A stretch of DNA of 64,000 nt from Streptomyces sp. NA04227 (GTDB taxonomy: Bacteria > Actinomycetota > Actinomycetes > Streptomycetales > Streptomycetaceae). Position 1 is the stretch's first letter, and the number at the start of each line of letters is the position of its first letter. The notes below the pieces were generated by a model. It made no database searches. It was not told where the DNA came from and saw only the letters and a program-made list of their open reading frames with translations. Below are positions 24,080 to 29,467 of the stretch, one piece after another. The stretch lies in contig NZ_CP054918.1 of NCBI RefSeq assembly GCF_013364195.1, positions 1,038,501 through 1,102,500 on the forward strand. Reading direction: 5' to 3'. Both the position numbers and the translations under genes were made by a program.

Positions 24080-25627
24080 TCACTGGACGCTCCGCAGTCG
24101 CACCCGCCGCAGGAAGTCCTCGACCCGGCGTGCGTCGGGCCCGTCCGGCAGCGGGCTGCCCTCCAGCGCGCGGTCGGCCTCCTCGGCCAGGCGGCGCATC
24201 CGGGACTCGACCTCGGGCCAGGCCACCTCGCCGCGTTTGACGGCGAGCAACTCCTCGCGGCGGTCGCCGACGTCGATCACCAGACGCCCGGTGCGCAGCA
24301 GGTCACCGCAGGTGGTCAGGAGTCGCAGCAGGTGCATGGCGTGCTTCCAGCGCGGCGCCCCGTGCACCCGTACGTCCGCCTCCAGCTTCTTGTACTGGCC
24401 CCGCGCGTAGCGGACGAAGGTGTCGTGGGCCTGCCGGGAGAGGAAGGCGCCGCGCAGGTCGAGGAGTTCCTGTCCGGTCTCGTCGAGGTGCTCGACGAGG
24501 GGCGAGTGCAGGCACTCCAGGATGTTCGGGTTGGCGCGCAGGGCCAGCTCGCAGAACCGCTCGATCTCCCAGGAGAACTGCTCCTCGGCCGGGCCCTCGA
24601 CGTGCGTCGGCGGCTTCTCGAACCGCCAGTACAGCGGGGTCGGGGCGACGAAGACTCCCCTGCGGTCGGTGTCGCTGCTCTCCGTCGCCAGGCCGAAGGC
24701 GCGCGAGCCCATCACGCAGGAGTAGACGGTGTGCTTGCCCACGAGGTCGGTGTCGTCGTGCTGCCGCGCGGGGCCGGTGTCGTCCGTGCCATGAGCGTCC
24801 TTCGCGGGTGCCGCCACGCGAACTCGCCGTCCGGCGCCGGGCGGGGCGGCGGGCGTGCGGACGCGGACCACGAGGTCGTGCAGGGCGTCGTGGCCGCCGG
24901 GGGTGTCCGGCAGGGACGAGCGTTCCTGCGCCGCGTCGAGCACCGCGTGCAGCCGTTCGACGTCCGCGCGGACGGTGTCCGGGTCGACCTCGGCCGGGCC
25001 GTGCTCGCGCTCGCTCTTGGCCGCGACGAGGTCGGGCACATAGGCGGGCGCCTCGGGGAGTTCGGCGGCGAGGGTCGGCAGATGCGCCTCGATTCCGCCG
25101 CCGCGCATCAGGTGGATGCCGGTGAGCAGGACCCGCAAGGTGTAGAGCAGCGGCTTGAGTTCACCGGTGCGTTCGAACAGGCGCCACTGGGTCCTGGCGA
25201 AGCCCCGGTAGTGGTGCGCGTGGTGGTGGGTGAGCACCTGCGGGGCCAGCGACACGAGTGCGGCGTGCGCCTCGGTGCTGTGCACGACCAGGGGCGAGAG
25301 CAGCTGTTCCAGGACGTAGCCGTTGCGGCGCAGCATCAGGCGGACGAACTTGCGCAGGTCGTGGGTGACGAGGTCCATCTCCACGCCGTCGCGCTCCCAC
25401 ATCCGCGAGCAGGTCTCCTCGGGTTCGCGCAGGCCGAGGAGTTGGGCCGCCGGGAGCAGGTGCACCCCGCGCATGTCGACGTCGGAGTCGCGGGAGGGGA
25501 ATCCGTACAGATGGGCTCCCGAGGCGGTCGCGAACAGGACGGGGTGGGCCTGTTCGGCGACCACCGCGCCGAGGTCCGCCTCCGGCAGCCCGGCCTTGGT
25601 CAGTACGTCCGTGTCGTCGCGTCTCAC
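24080..25627 (-). CDS. Double RlaP-like nucleotidyltransferase (two fused domains)
   Basis: 515 aa, soluble. Two copies of a polymerase-beta-fold nucleotidyltransferase like RlaP (RNA-repair associated) or YcgL/DUF2204 proteins. Copy 1, about residues 28-240, has ASGAHLYGFPSRDSDVDMRG and a third acidic residue in GVEMDLVTHDLRKF. Copy 2, about 290-500, has MGSRAFGLATESSDTDRRG and EEQFSWEIERFCEL. Each is followed by a helical region with an NP/N-x-LE-x-L-SPLV motif (VLEQLLSPLV; ILECLHSPLV). Single-domain family members are about half this length. The two are joined by a charged linker (about 255-285). GTG 25627 starts 3 nt after the upstream stop, in the coupled operon with DraG-like, NUDIX, NadR-like and PnuC genes. 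Exact substrate, RNA end or nucleotide, is unknown. Confidence 0.85.
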   Translation of the reverse strand: MRRDDTDVLTKAGLPEADLGAVVAEQAHPVLFATASGAHLYGFPSRDSDVDMRGVHLLPAAQLLGLREPEETCSRMWERDGVEMDLVTHDLRKFVRLMLRRNGYVLEQLLSPLVVHSTEAHAALVSLAPQVLTHHHAHHYRGFARTQWRLFERTGELKPLLYTLRVLLTGIHLMRGGGIEAHLPTLAAELPEAPAYVPDLVAAKSEREHGPAEVDPDTVRADVERLHAVLDAAQERSSLPDTPGGHDALHDLVVRVRTPAAPPGAGRRVRVAAPAKDAHGTDDTGPARQHDDTDLVGKHTVYSCVMGSRAFGLATESSDTDRRGVFVAPTPLYWRFEKPPTHVEGPAEEQFSWEIERFCELALRANPNILECLHSPLVEHLDETGQELLDLRGAFLSRQAHDTFVRYARGQYKKLEADVRVHGAPRWKHAMHLLRLLTTCGDLLRTGRLVIDVGDRREELLAVKRGEVAWPEVESRMRRLAEEADRALEGSPLPDGPDARRVEDFLRRVRLRSVQ

Positions 25628-25630
25628 CGC

Positions 25631-26656
25631 TCAAGCGTCCCAGAGCGCTCCCAGCGTCACCAACTGGCTTTCGTACTCGATGCGGTCGGCCCAGTCGTGC
25701 GGCCAGGCGTCCGGGCCGTGGTACGCACCGGCCAGGGCGCCGGTGAGCGCGGCGATCGAGTCCGAGTCGCCCGCGGTGCAGGCAGCCCTGCGCAGGGCCG
25801 TCACGGGTTCGTCGACGAACAGCAGGAAGCACAACAGCGCGGTGGCCAGGGCCTCTTCGGCGATCCAGCCCTCGCCGGTGGCCAGGCACGGGTCGGTCTC
25901 CGGGGAGACGGTGCGCAGCGCGTCCCGGACTCGTTCGAGCGCCGCCAGGCAGTCGTCCCAGCCGCGTGCGACGAAGGCGCCGGGCGAGGCGTCGTGGGAG
26001 CGCGTCCACAGGTCGCCGAGCCAGCGCCGGTGGTACGTGTCCCGGTTGTCGAGCGCGTACGAGCGCAGCCGTCCGACCAGACCGGCGGGGTCGGTGCCGG
26101 TGGCCAGCAGCCGTATCGCGTGGGCGGTGAGGTCGGAGGCGGCGAGCGCGGTGGGGTGGCCGTGGGTGAGCCCGGCCTGCAACTGGGCGGCGCCCGCGCG
26201 CTGTTCGTCGCTCAGGTGCGGCAGCAGGCCGAGCGGGGCGACGCGCATATTGGCCCCGCAGCCCTTGGAGCCGATCCTGCTGGCGTCCTGCCAGGGCAGG
26301 TCGGGGTCGGCGAGCAGTTCGCAGGCCCTCAGACAGGTGTGGCCGGGCGCCCGGTTGTTCTCGGGCGAGACGGACCAGGCGACGAAGGCCTCCCGCAGCG
26401 GCCGGTGCAGGTGCGCGGCGTCGAGCGGGCCGCGGTCGGTCACCTCGCGCAGGGCGTGTCCGAGGGCGAGGGTCATCTGGGTGTCGTCGGTGATGAGGGC
26501 GGGTTCGGGCAGCTCCATCTCGCGCCAGGGGCCGCACTTGGCGAGGATCGCGGGCACGTTGTCGAACTCGGTCGGACAGCCGAGAGCGTCACCGAGGGCG
26601 AGTCCGAGCAGGGAGCCGGTGGCGGCGCGTCCGGCGGTACGGGTGGGCAGGGTCAT
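25631..26656 (-). CDS. ADP-ribosylglycohydrolase (DraG-like)
   Basis: 341-aa cytoplasmic hydrolase that removes ADP-ribose from modified protein or other substrates using two metal ions. Signatures are complete: GSLLGLALGDALGCPTEF near residue 12, the metal-binding ITDDTQMTLAL (about 52), and AGDSDSIAALTGALAGAYHG (about 290), whose aspartates bind the second metal. Length fits family. ATG 26656 shares one base with the preceding TGA (TGATG). Placed between an NrtR-like regulator and a double nucleotidyltransferase, which points to turnover of ADP-ribose derived from NAD. No dinitrogenase reductase genes are nearby, so it is not the nitrogen-fixation DraG. Confidence 0.92.
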   Translation of the reverse strand: MTLPTRTAGRAATGSLLGLALGDALGCPTEFDNVPAILAKCGPWREMELPEPALITDDTQMTLALGHALREVTDRGPLDAAHLHRPLREAFVAWSVSPENNRAPGHTCLRACELLADPDLPWQDASRIGSKGCGANMRVAPLGLLPHLSDEQRAGAAQLQAGLTHGHPTALAASDLTAHAIRLLATGTDPAGLVGRLRSYALDNRDTYHRRWLGDLWTRSHDASPGAFVARGWDDCLAALERVRDALRTVSPETDPCLATGEGWIAEEALATALLCFLLFVDEPVTALRRAACTAGDSDSIAALTGALAGAYHGPDAWPHDWADRIEYESQLVTLGALWDA

Positions 26657-27393
26657 CAGGGTCGTCCTTCCGGTCGCAGAACCGGCGGGTGCAGGGCGGT
26701 GGCCGGGCCCGCGCGGTGCAGGGCGGCGGGTTTGCCGCGGCCGCCGGTGAGCCGGGCGGCGCCGGGGACCTGCTCCACGAAGCCCGGCGTGGCGAGCACC
26801 TTCCGGCGGAAGTTGGGCCGGTCCAGGGCGGTGCCCCACACCGTCTCGTAGACCTGCTGGAGCTCCCCGAGGGTGAACAGCGGCGGGCAGAAGGCGGTGG
26901 CCAGGCAGGTGTACTCCAGCTTGGCGCGGACGCGTTCGCGCGCGTCGGCGAGGATCGTGTCGTGGTCGAAGGCGAGCGGTCCCGCCTCCTCGCAGGGGAC
27001 CCAGTCGGCCCGCGCCGCGTCGCCGCCACCCCGGGGCTCGGGCAGATCGGGCACGAGAGCGGTGTAGGCGACGGAGACCACCCGCATCCGCGGATCGCGG
27101 TCCGGCTCGCTGTAGGTACGCAGTTGTTCCAGGTGCAGGGAGCCGGTCAGCCGCTCGCCGAGCCCGGTCTCCTCGGCGAGTTCGCGGCGGGCCGCCGTCT
27201 CGGCCGACTCGGCGGGCAGCAAGAAGCCGCCGGGCAGGGCGCGTTGGCCCGCGTAGGGCTCTTGCCCGCGTTCCACCAGGAGGACCTGGAGCCGTCCCGA
27301 CCGGACCGTGAACACCGCCAGATCCACGGTGACGGCGAAGGGTTCGAAGGCGTACTTGTCGTAGGCGGGTGGCATCTGCGGATGTGCGCTCAT
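26656..27393 (-). CDS. nrtR: NUDIX hydrolase with winged-helix tail, NrtR-like regulator
   Basis: 245 aa. The N-terminal NUDIX domain carries a perfect box (G-X5-E-X7-REL-X-EE-X-GL at about 50-73: GFLLPAESAETAARRELAEE), so catalysis on ADP-ribose may be retained. The C-terminal domain (about 160-230, FTLGELQQVYETVWGTALDR then NFRRKVL) is the winged helix typical of NrtR, which senses ADP-ribose and represses NAD genes. The ATG overlaps the nadR-like stop by 4 bp. GGGGGAGGG lies 3-4 nt upstream of ATG. A palindrome over the operon promoter at 29259-29281 is the obvious candidate target. Alternative: simple NUDIX pyrophosphatase with a helical tail. Confidence 0.85.
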   Translation of the reverse strand: MSAHPQMPPAYDKYAFEPFAVTVDLAVFTVRSGRLQVLLVERGQEPYAGQRALPGGFLLPAESAETAARRELAEETGLGERLTGSLHLEQLRTYSEPDRDPRMRVVSVAYTALVPDLPEPRGGGDAARADWVPCEEAGPLAFDHDTILADARERVRAKLEYTCLATAFCPPLFTLGELQQVYETVWGTALDRPNFRRKVLATPGFVEQVPGAARLTGGRGKPAALHRAGPATALHPPVLRPEGRP

Positions 27394-28592
27394 GGGCCCT
27401 CCCCCGTCCCAGAGGCTGCCGCCCCGGACGCTGTCGTCGTGGCGGCTGACGTCGTAGCTGCTGACGTCGTGACTGCCGACGTCGAGGCGACCGACGTCGT
27501 AACGGCCGCGGTCCCGGTCAGATCCGGCAGCGGGTCGGTGAAGTGCCAGCCCGCGGCGAGCAGTGCGTCCACGGCGGTCACCGCGGTGGCCAGGCGCTCC
27601 TCGTGACTGCCGCCGAGCATCACGAACGGTCTTGCGGTACGGGTGAGTTCGGCGTGGAAGCGCCCGGTCATCCAGGGGCGCAGTTCCTCGCCGTCGCGCA
27701 GTCCGTCGTCCTCGAAGGGCACGCCCTCGTGATCGGTGAGCAGCCACAGGTGGCGCTGCGTCCGCCCGGCGAGTTCGTCGACGCTGGGGTTGCGGCCCCC
27801 GACGTAGCGCTCGTGCCAGACGGTGGTCGCGAACGCGTCGGTGTCGCAGAACAGGACCGGACCGCCCTCGCCCGCCGCCCGCTCCTCCCGCTCGTTCTGC
27901 CGCTCGGCGATCAGCGGGAACTCCTCGCCTCCCAACTCCACGTCCTCCCAACGGGCTTCGGGCCACCGCTGACGCAACTCCCGAAGCCTGCGCTCGCTGT
28001 GCTCGCGCCCGTACTCGGGCACCCAGCGCGTCCCGGCGAACGCGCCCCCGCGTTCCCGGTAGTGCGCGGCCAGGGCGCGGGCCATCGTCGTCGTACCGCT
28101 GGACTCGGCGCCGAGCACCACCACCCGCCGGGCCAGGCCCGCCCGCACCGGGGGCGCGAGGTGGTGCCAGTGCGCCACCGGGTCGGCGCGTACCGCCGTA
28201 CCGGAGACGGGAAAGGCGCGGCGCTCCGGGTCCACCGGGACGTGCGCGGCGCCGAACCGGCGGGCGAGTTCGGCCCCGTAGGACTCGGAGGTGAAGACGG
28301 CGTCCACCTCGCCCTCGACGCCCTGCCGGAAGATCCGCACATGGGCGTCCCAGATCTCCGGGTCGTCGAGGTCCATCGGGACGTCGTCGACAAGACCGAC
28401 GATCCGGCAGTCCGGGTGGACCGCGCGCATCCACGCGACCCGCTCGGCCAGCGGCACCGACTCCACCGAAGCCGCACAGACCAGCACGGTCAGCTCCGCG
28501 CACCGCGCCCGCGCGGTACGCACCAGATGGTGGTGGCCCGCGTGCGGCGGATAGAACTTGCCGAGGACCAGGCCGTGGCGGTGACGCCTCAT
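27390..28592 (-). CDS. nadR: NadR-like bifunctional NMN adenylyltransferase / ribosylnicotinamide kinase
   Basis: 400 aa. N-terminal nucleotidyltransferase domain with GKFYPPHAGHHHLVRTA (HxGH motif at residue 10-20) and, near 160, the VSGTAVRADP variant of the ISSTxxR motif; this makes NAD from NMN and ATP. The second domain (about 185-360) is a P-loop kinase, with VVLGAESSGTTTMARALA: the usual GK(S/T) lysine is replaced by Thr. The last ~40 residues are Thr/Ser/Ala-rich repeats coded by a 15-bp tandem array (27433-27507). No helix-turn-helix repressor domain, unlike the E. coli NadR. ATGA overlap with pnuC upstream. Whether kinase activity survives the P-loop change is open. Confidence 0.85.
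   Translation of the reverse strand: MRRHRHGLVLGKFYPPHAGHHHLVRTARARCAELTVLVCAASVESVPLAERVAWMRAVHPDCRIVGLVDDVPMDLDDPEIWDAHVRIFRQGVEGEVDAVFTSESYGAELARRFGAAHVPVDPERRAFPVSGTAVRADPVAHWHHLAPPVRAGLARRVVVLGAESSGTTTMARALAAHYRERGGAFAGTRWVPEYGREHSERRLRELRQRWPEARWEDVELGGEEFPLIAERQNEREERAAGEGGPVLFCDTDAFATTVWHERYVGGRNPSVDELAGRTQRHLWLLTDHEGVPFEDDGLRDGEELRPWMTGRFHAELTRTARPFVMLGGSHEERLATAVTAVDALLAAGWHFTDPLPDLTGTAAVTTSVASTSAVTTSAATTSAATTTASGAAASGTGEGP
27433..27507. repeat. 15-bp tandem repeats in the nadR-like 3' end
   Basis: GACGTCG recurs every 15 bp (27448, 27463, 27478, 27493) with a variant at 27433. It encodes a 5-residue Thr-Ser-Ala-type repeat in the C-terminal tail. Confidence 0.8.
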
Positions 28593-29248
28593 GCCATCGC
28601 CCCCGCCGTCCGCGCGCCGGGCACCAGGTCCCGCCGCCAGTCGCGCAGCCCCACGCAGCACAGGGCGAGGAAGCCCACGTAGAGCAGCGAGGTCAAGTAC
28701 AGCTCCTTGTACGCGTACAGCGGTACGTAGACCACGTCGGCGGCGATCCACAGCCACCAGGACTCCAGGCGTTTACGGCACTGGCCGTAGGTCGCCATCA
28801 GCGAGAGCCCCGTGGTCAGCGCGTCCCAGAACGGCACGGTGGAGTCGGTCTGCCGGTCGAGCAGCACGGTCAGGGCGAGGGTGCCCACCACCCCCGCCGC
28901 GCACAGCCACAGCCATTCGGTACGGCTCGTACGGCCGACCTCCTGTCCTGGGGAGCCCGGGCCACCCCCGTGGGTCCAGGTCCACCAGCCGTACGCGGCA
29001 AGGGAGATGAAGACGATCTGGAGACCGGCGTCGGCGTACAGGCCGGAGTCGGTGAACAGCAGGACGAACAGCAGGTTGTTGGCGATACCGATCGGCCAGT
29101 TCGCCGTCCGCTGCCGCGCCACGAGCCAGACGCACAGCGCCCCGCTCCCGAAGCCGAGCACCTCGGTCCAGCTGACCGGGGTGTCGAGCAGGGTGAAGAG
29201 CGGCTGCCGCAAGGGATCGAGAACGCCCGAGAGACTCGCGAGACTCAC
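28589..29248 (-). CDS. pnuC: Nicotinamide riboside transporter PnuC
   Basis: 219-aa membrane protein that facilitates nicotinamide riboside uptake. Seven hydrophobic stretches are visible. PnuC hallmarks: WPIGIANNLLFVLLF with the N-N pair, W-W-T-W in YGWWTWTHGG, and WWLWIAADVVYVPLYAYKEL, where WLWI-x-x-D is a family signature. GTG 29248 is chosen because AAGGAGG lies 5 nt upstream; the longer frame from 29269 would begin inside that ribosome site. It is the first gene of the five-gene operon and overlaps nadR by 4 bp. Family function is well known; substrate is supported by the NadR neighbour. Confidence 0.93.
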   Translation of the reverse strand: MSLASLSGVLDPLRQPLFTLLDTPVSWTEVLGFGSGALCVWLVARQRTANWPIGIANNLLFVLLFTDSGLYADAGLQIVFISLAAYGWWTWTHGGGPGSPGQEVGRTSRTEWLWLCAAGVVGTLALTVLLDRQTDSTVPFWDALTTGLSLMATYGQCRKRLESWWLWIAADVVYVPLYAYKELYLTSLLYVGFLALCCVGLRDWRRDLVPGARTAGAMA

Positions 29249-29258
29249 GCCCGCCTCC

Positions 29259-29281
29259 TTAATAGTCACTCAGACCATAAA
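29259..29281. promoter_or_regulatory. Palindrome over the pnuC promoter, candidate NrtR operator
   Basis: Arms TTAATAGTC and GACCATAAA separated by ACTCA; the arms match in 7 of 9 positions when one is reverse-complemented. It overlaps the putative -10 and start site and touches the pnuC ribosome site (29254-29260). Confidence 0.6.
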
Positions 29282-29303
29282 GGGGCGTGGTGTTCTCACG
29301 CAA
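29274..29303 (-). promoter_or_regulatory. Putative pnuC operon promoter
   Basis: On the minus strand TTGCGT (29303-29298), 18 nt, TATGGT (29279-29274). The start would fall near 29267, about 18 nt before GTG. AT-rich compared with its surroundings. Confidence 0.45.
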
Positions 29304-29365
29304 GCCTCTTTCGGGGGTGGTGGGCGGGGCGGCGGTTCGGTGAAGTGCCTTGGCTGGGTGAGGGG

Positions 29366-29467
29366 TTGGCGGGTTGGAGGTTGGCGGGTTGGAGGTTGGC
29401 GGGTTGGCGGGTTGGCGGGTTGGCGGGTTGGCGGGTTGGCGGGTTGGCGGGTTGGCGGGTTGGCGGG
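29366..29467. repeat. Perfect short tandem array upstream of pnuC operon
   Basis: Two copies of a 15-mer (TTGGCGGGTTGGAGG at 29366 and 29381) are followed by nine exact copies of the 8-mer TTGGCGGG (29396-29467). The + strand is G-run rich and could form a quadruplex. Eight is not a multiple of three, so it is not coding. Confidence 0.95.

Follow-up and report, generated by a model that had tools for sequence, protein, structure and literature searches.

What brings an ADP-ribosyl hydrolase and a double RlaP-type nucleotidyltransferase together with genes for salvage of nicotinamide adenine dinucleotide (NAD) behind a single regulator? The question is raised by positions 24080 to 29303 of a 64,000-nucleotide stretch of the Streptomyces sp. 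NA04227 genome (the window; C1:1038501-1102500 of a single contig of 7.89 Mb), where pnuC, a nadR-like gene, nrtR, draG and a fused rlaP-rlaP gene follow one another on the minus strand. We propose, with a probability of roughly 0.4, that the five genes form a Streptomyces operon that serves the end-processing of damaged RNA and that its own NUDIX regulator, of NrtR type, represses. Support for the operon itself and for its switch is good. The anatomy of the operon, its operator, the RlaP fusion, a Deinococcus operon in which an RlaP pair lies with hen1 and pnkp, and the predicted Hen1, Pnkp and KptA of the genome itself are what the sequences offer; the link to RNA-end repair, which rests on context, is plausible and the most likely reading. 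Here DraG and RlaP come under a single repressor of the NAD-metabolite type, whose operator is precisely defined, and the same genomes encode Pnkp and Hen1. A shared, simple genetic test for DraG, RlaP and Pnkp-Hen1 in laboratory Streptomyces follows, and a connection of NAD metabolism with RNA repair becomes testable.

Five closely packed genes

The five genes are likely read as one transcription unit, given their overlaps and a single operator ahead of the leading gene, whatever its identity. The 4-, 4- and 1-bp overlaps and the 3-nt gap described in a first-pass annotation of the window were confirmed from open reading frames (ORFs), sequence and Pfam: pnuC and nadR share an ATGA (28589-28592), as do nadR and nrtR (27390-27393); nrtR and draG overlap by 1 bp in a TGATG (at 26656); and three nucleotides (25628-25630) separate draG from rlaP-rlaP.

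The family assignments of NrtR, DraG and RlaP hold by Pfam profile. The NrtR-type regulator (26656-27393) joins a NUDIX domain (PF00293, 2.4e-20), whose Nudix signature is intact, to a winged helix (NrtR_WHD, PF21906, 9.4e-14), both over cut-off; the equivalog is not claimed, the NCBIfam match (NF050029) reaching 133 against 400 bits, under cut-off. The DraG/ARH-type ADP-ribosyl hydrolase (25631-26656; ADP_ribosyl_GH, 3.8e-64) carries conserved TDDT and GDSDS motifs. The fused ORF (24080-25627) matches PF10127 (5.1e-86) in two stretches, both over cut-off, which we call the RlaP-N half (24803-25627, SGAHLYGF..DSDVD type) and the RlaP-C half (24080-24802, GSRAFGL..SDTD type), the cut between them being our choice. 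Upstream, the nadR-like gene (27390-28592) encodes a putative adenylyltransferase of nicotinamide mononucleotide (NMN) with a P-loop kinase domain that lacks the Walker A lysine (AAA_28, 7.4e-29; CTP_transf_like, 7.7e-5); its match to the NCBIfam NadR model falls under cut-off. The first gene, pnuC (28589-29248), preceded by a ribosome-binding site, encodes a predicted nicotinamide riboside/NMN transporter (NMN_transporter, PF04973, 1.7e-58; TIGR01528, passed at 105.1 bits against a cut-off of 42.45). The longest possible ORF, extending to 29269, would run into the operator, which suggests too early a start; the GTG at 29246-29248, after AAGGAGG, is the more likely start. A generic scan of the operon found no intrinsic terminator above chance.

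A conserved unit at a fixed site

Conservation was followed in 94 aligned Streptomyces loci, namely the best 80 of at least 538 confirmed genome-scan loci, a choice that biases the sample to close relatives, and 14 loci from an evenly drawn class sample, picked for a strong or decayed module RlaP. Eight class-sample Streptomyces with only a more distant RlaP elsewhere (L065-L072) were left out; L041/L140 and L042/L120 look like the same contig, which leaves about 92 distinct loci. Best-piece identities to the window range from 52 to 85%.

The commonest order, seen in 65 of the 94, is rluB, nrtR, draG, rlaPN, rlaPC (on the opposite strand), aroH, tyrA. The flanking names follow Pfam matches: upstream, the gene called rluB matches pseudouridine synthase; downstream, that called aroH matches type I chorismate mutase, and tyrA matches prephenate dehydrogenase. 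nrtR went undetected in ten loci. Since pnuC and nadR together occur in only 11 loci, and pnuC alone in one, they form an optional front insert and not part of the core. The five-gene set is thus not the conserved unit; in a survey of 150 Streptomyces genomes (the window genome and 149 others), NadR was matched in 52, strongly in 51. In these alignments, the conserved unit is nrtR-draG-rlaPN at one fixed site, with rlaPC as a convergent neighbour. The arrangement is beyond chance, recurring at one syntenic Streptomyces site behind a conserved operator. The genes adjoin one another in more than a handful of near kin, but within this survey only Streptomyces and one strain labelled Kitasatospora (L118) showed the nrtR-draG-rlaP linkage.

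The regions upstream of the operon hold a common palindrome, TTWATRGTC-N5-GACYATWAA. In the window it reads TTTATGGTCTGAGTGACTATTAA (29259-29281, minus strand) and overlaps a putative -10 element (TATGGT, 29274-29279), which a putative -35 element (TTGCGT, 29298-29303, minus strand) precedes by 18 nt. A TTG hexamer stands 17-18 nt ahead of TAT[AG]GT in 73 of the 77 upstream regions with a core site, a spacing which indicates that the operator covers the -10 element; a generic sigma-70 scan gave no promoter above chance at the operon start. When up to three mismatches were allowed, the operator was found in 90 of the 94 loci, and the 112 sites in their 1.48 Mb all lie no farther than 300 bp ahead of the gene that leads the operon, be it nrtR (94 sites), pnuC (12) or draG (6). 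It is kept in all 84 loci with a detectable nrtR, and the four loci without it all belong to the ten in which nrtR was not detected. At the same threshold, a whole-genome query with TTTATRGTCNNNNTGACTATTAA returned a single site in the window genome, that of this operon, and 100 shuffles returned none of the window site. We infer that the window NrtR binds the palindrome at 29259-29281.

No operator was found within 600 bp upstream of the convergent rlaPC in the 94 loci. Co-regulation of rlaPC with the operon in other Streptomyces was therefore rejected, and its co-regulation in the window would come solely through the fusion.

The RlaP pair

The double nucleotidyltransferase of the first-pass annotation does consist of two RlaP stretches in one ORF, but the fusion appears peculiar to the window genome. 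Among the matches listed for the 150 Streptomyces genomes, where a fused match is expected near the top of the place list, both halves were matched in one frame only in the window genome; elsewhere they are separate convergent genes. In the window, rlaPC lies on the strand opposite to its usual one and is joined in frame to rlaPN by a linker of about 35 residues, in which the third-position content of guanine plus cytosine is 0.83, compared to 0.93 and 0.96 in the halves. Such a fusion between genes that are normally neighbours argues for, without proving, a heterodimer of RlaPN and RlaPC, and the frequent pairing of the two genes points the same way.

Both halves keep the GS/DxD motif of Pol-beta-type enzymes (S36 G37 and D49 D51 in RlaP-N; G32 S33 and D44 D46 in RlaP-C). 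Their AlphaFold models (mean predicted local distance difference test scores of 77.4 and 80.5) show a nucleotidyltransferase domain, recognisable by its strands and helices, and after it a helical bundle. By fold, the N half is best matched by HalB, which we take to be a nucleotidyltransferase, and by aminoglycoside nucleotidyltransferases; one HalB entry is a complex with oligodeoxyadenylate. The fold matches of the C half are weak, the best being ANT(4') at E 0.033. The substrate is not readable from matches to these predicted folds.

Several further RlaP sequences were encountered. A third, more distant type in Streptomyces L065-L072 is 33-37% identical to the C half. In Gordonia phage Daredevil, a gene annotated as a nucleotidyltransferase and related to RlaP-C stands directly before an RNA ligase gene (L007, 4986-7054). 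A Proteus mirabilis record (L006, 5965-7780) holds two adjacent, co-directional ORFs, which share about 30% and 37% identity with the RlaP halves. The shortened contig of L087 yielded extra RlaPC fragments. In L073 (G123), rlaPC is in three pieces, rlaPN was not found and pnkp is decayed, while the matches to nrtR and draG span the greater part of both genes.

A proposed link to RNA-end repair

RlaP stands for RNA ligase-associating Pol-beta, and the family is predicted to restore lost nucleotides ahead of ligation (PMC7824862). The context that would connect the pair to repair comes from three Deinococcus plasmids, in which a pair of neighbouring ORFs akin to the two RlaP halves comes after hen1 (mean identity 46-54%; in D. 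gobiensis and D. ficus, 46-53% for each half). The order in D. gobiensis is RlaP-C type first, RlaP-N type second, and an intact pnkp lies behind hen1-rlaP-rlaP in D. gobiensis and D. ficus. An RNA ligase gene thus adjoins RlaP in Deinococcus L004 and L005; none does in the window operon, from which Pnkp is 1.86 Mb away. In another actinobacterium (L074), RlaPN, RlaPC, Pnkp and Hen1 are encoded inside 11 kb, with unrelated genes between them. The D. taeanensis plasmid has only pnkp remnants behind its hen1-rlaP-rlaP (L003, 9641-9908).

The window genome has its own repair set: Pnkp (1359 bits) with Hen1_L (368 bits) directly before it, at C1:2921388-2925607, and KptA (1.4e-46). Both hen1-pnkp and kptA lie megabases from the operon, of which hen1 and pnkp are not members. 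The operon thus resembles the Hen1-Pnkp RNA repair operon in that both of its RlaP types follow hen1 in Deinococcus plasmids, and differs in that hen1-pnkp sits elsewhere, without this operator. The notion of a self-contained module goes too far on the same point, Pnkp-Hen1 and the NAD-using KptA being encoded far away. The in vivo substrates of Pnkp-Hen1 have been stated to be unknown (PMC4411300).

Under the proposed reading, NAD-consuming reactions would raise the level of ADP-ribose or related products, and the NUDIX regulator, by analogy with NrtR biology, would then leave the promoter operator. Expression of the operon would then supply DraG, to take ADP-ribose off modified ends or proteins. 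It would also supply the RlaP pair, two distinct nucleotidyltransferases of the Pol-beta type working jointly, which might restore the nucleotides lost from broken RNA; the separately encoded Pnkp-Hen1 could then heal, methylate and seal it in trans. In about one-third of Streptomyces genomes the same operator precedes nadR (accompanied by pnuC in the examined loci), so that capture of NAD precursors would be co-induced. A more specific version appears unlikely: a metabolite-controlled RNA repair regulon in which ADP-ribose products given off by KptA/Tpt1 and by other NAD-using end processing are sensed by the NrtR paralogue as an RNA-damage alarm, and in which NrtR switches on an RNA-end de-ADP-ribosylating hydrolase, an obligate heterodimeric RlaP that rebuilds ends so that Pnkp-Hen1 can seal them and, in one-third of species, NAD precursor capture. 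If it were true, a natural gene fusion would have exposed an RlaP heterodimer within such a regulon.

Co-occurrence and the points against the repair reading

Co-occurrence was counted in a class sample of 296 genomes, 28 Streptomyces among them, with presence sets compiled by hand. A 'strong Pnkp' was defined by a best place at E below about 1e-179, partial matches included, which gave 88 genomes compared to 82 over the curated cut-off. RlaP and strong Pnkp were found together in 67 genomes, RlaP without Pnkp in 11, Pnkp without RlaP in 21 and neither in 197 (odds ratio 57.1); for RlaP and KptA the corresponding numbers were 45, 33, 8 and 210 (odds ratio 35.8). Without Streptomyces, RlaP and Pnkp gave 45, 10, 21 and 192 (odds ratio 41.1), and the RlaP-KptA ratio was 19.6; within the 28 Streptomyces, RlaP and Pnkp gave 22, 1, 0 and 5. 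These odds ratios ignore kinship. In the 150 Streptomyces genomes, any RlaP and a Pnkp over cut-off occurred together in 123, RlaP only in 5, Pnkp only in 10 and neither in 12. Among the five with RlaP only, the drafts G296 and G391 hold Pnkp fragments, the gene is decayed in G123 and G389, and it is absent from G370; in G344, one of the 12 with neither, a piece of Pnkp lies at the edge of a contig. All 18 of the genomes with only a distant RlaP (E 1e-13 to 1e-27) have a full Pnkp.

A number of observations weigh against the repair reading. A sobering one is the single control, the gas vesicle protein, picked as an unrelated accessory family. It occurred with RlaP in 49 of the 296 genomes (RlaP only in 29, gas vesicle only in 21, neither in 197), and its odds ratios were 15.9 with RlaP, 17.0 with Pnkp and 11.6 with KptA (12.0, 15.8 and 5.3 without Streptomyces); in the 28 Streptomyces, the RlaP-gas vesicle counts were 21, 2, 4 and 1. 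The RlaP-Pnkp association is stronger than this control, but since gas vesicles co-occur too, much of it may reflect phylogeny and genome size, and we rejected co-occurrence statistics as proof of the RlaP-Pnkp link. The proposed tie of RlaP to RNA-end repair thus keeps the Deinococcus operons and the Pnkp co-occurrence in its favour, the latter discounted by the control.

The remaining points concern exceptions. Of the 78 class genomes with RlaP, 11 lack a strong Pnkp match, and one of these, G161, which has the RlaP pair, matches Pnkp only at 4.7e-5. Conversely, Pnkp is kept in 10 of the 22 Streptomyces genomes without RlaP. DraG follows Pnkp less closely than RlaP does: in the 150 genomes, a draG orthologue (E < 1e-50) and Pnkp were found together in 114, Pnkp only in 19, DraG only in 8 and neither in 9. 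Module RlaP is kept without a full draG orthologue in 11 of these genomes. Both the DraG-Pnkp counts and the genomes with RlaP and no draG speak against a tight single module, and rlaPN was not detected in 5 of the 94 loci. Outside Streptomyces, no RlaP-nrtR/draG linkage was found, ten fetched f17-family genomes having neither nrtR nor draG beside their RlaP genes. A regulon shared by the operon and hen1-pnkp was rejected, since only one TTTATRGTCNNNNTGACTATTAA site exists genome-wide at up to three mismatches. Finally, six of the ten loci without a detected nrtR keep the operator before draG (L041, L093, L140, L147, L150 and L159), which implies that the site can serve another protein or that these loci are remnants. 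A second NrtR perhaps acts in trans at these loci.

The hydrolase and its counterparts

The closest solved relatives of the window DraG by sequence are DraG (2woe) and ARH3 entries. D57 D58 T59 and G296 D297 S298 D299 are conserved at 97% or more (93 rows); in DraG and ARH3, these acidic residues form the metal site. The hydrolase thus shares its sequence family and conserved acidic motifs with Rhodospirillum rubrum-type DraG and ARH3, and differs in having no transferase partner. By synteny, we take SCO1766 to be its S. coelicolor orthologue, and presumably SCO1767 is the nrtR gene of this locus. SCO1766 has been listed as an uncharacterised DraG homologue (PMC5087735, PMC9411070). SCO1767, named a DNA hydrolase, is up by log2 1.92 on under-expression of topoisomerase I and by log2 1.81 on its over-expression; both tables of these values contain dnaE2, dinP and uvrA as well, and the second of them recA and lexA too (PMC6637917). 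Another S. coelicolor ARH, SCO5809, strips the ADP-ribose that the Tpt1/KptA-like SCO3953 puts on RNA 5'-phosphate (PMC11833690). This activity makes RNA ends a fair candidate substrate of DraG, no more.

A possible but rather unlikely alternative starts from the hydrolase. Systems centred on an ADP-ribosyl hydrolase without a coupled transferase (ARG-centric systems) have been proposed to undo viral ADP-ribosylation, with actinobacteria named among their carriers; more than 42% have a Nudix or WYL repressor and slightly more than 55% a phosphatase, which is not obligatory (PMC9503650). The operon could be a Streptomyces form of such a conflict system, undoing phage- or toxin-borne ADP-ribosylation of host macromolecules, proteins above all, with the RlaPs as accessory effectors or repair enzymes and NAD supply as replenishment. 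The core of the template is matched, with a hydrolase under a one-component Nudix-helix-turn-helix repressor in an operon whose five proteins include no transferase family by Pfam, and distant DraG relatives exist in phages (26 records, 29-41% identity). However, neither a rhodanese or other phosphatase nor a chaperone, frequent parts of these systems, is among the five genes; the RlaP pair, PnuC and NadR are added, none of which is named in section 3.8 of that account (PMC9503650); and the locus is fixed between rluB and aroH/tyrA, not quickly turning over. The lack of a PADLOC match for the five proteins also led us to reject a known defence system. Phage origin was rejected as well, since the phage relatives are distant, those of RlaP (114 records) being all below 60% identity with none spanning 80% of the query, and those of NadR (580 records) showing 29-33% identity among the 15 matches listed.

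We therefore regard the operon as a meeting point of ARG-centric systems, NrtR regulons and the RlaP/Pnkp/Hen1 repair set. No earlier description of nrtR, draG, rlaP, pnuC and nadR together was found in the literature searches made, which leaves room for one.

The regulator and the NAD genes

NrtR family members control NAD genes, and for MsNrtR, ADP-ribose or a relative has been reported as the ligand that releases it from DNA (PMC6800001). The window operon resembles such regulons in its combination of NUDIX domain and winged helix, its palindrome at its own operon and, in a subset of loci, its PnuC and NadR. It differs in its operator, which is not the mycobacterial GTTTTCGA-N7-TCGAAAAC and precedes DraG and RlaP genes, and in its Nudix signature, which is degenerate and inactive in MsNrtR (PMC6800001) and kept at 97% or more here (84 rows). 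The intact signature suggests that the regulator may still hydrolyse its ligand.

These likenesses invite a second alternative, in which the NrtR paralogue controls salvage through PnuC and NadR and clears ADP-ribose for NAD homeostasis, the RlaPs being passengers through vertical inheritance of the site. The operator does precede pnuC wherever pnuC comes first, and nadR adjoins nrtR or draG in 48 of 51 genomes by hand count (the exceptions being G101, G337 and G432). What makes this account quite unlikely is that pnuC-nadR is optional, the commoner nrtR-draG-rlaPN having no NAD-synthetic step, and that the window genome has a second NrtR, about 62% identical, at C1:6525026-6525781, hits of about that similarity occurring in many of the 150 genomes among the matches listed.

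NadR itself raises a further doubt. The solved NadR 9x6f matches its residues 5-303, and the HIGH-type motif, characteristic of NMN adenylyltransferase, reads GKFYPPHAGH in 11 of the 12 aligned sequences and GRFCPPHAGH in L151. The kinase Walker A, whose lysine serves nicotinamide riboside kinase activity, reads GAES[ST]G[TA]TT in all 12, compared to GTESSGKTT in 9x6f. The missing lysine counts against NAD homeostasis as it does against NAD capture within the repair reading; it leaves nicotinamide riboside salvage in doubt, and with it the earlier claim that NadR makes NAD from this precursor. NAD salvage is thus a real but optional, partly doubtful part of the operon, and the first-pass interpretation is partly supported overall.

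That there is no functional unit, the genes having come together at the rluB-tyrA site and stayed there by descent, is very improbable: the linkage evidence does come nearly all from one genus and the gas vesicle control reveals heavy phylogenetic confounding, but stops and starts overlap, one operator precedes the first gene, be it nrtR, pnuC or draG, and two partners are fused in frame.

Between rluB and pnuC, a short way ahead of the operon promoter, lies an array of an 8-bp unit, GGGTTGGC (29363-29467; 13.4 copies, 91% matches), which is possibly of variable length.

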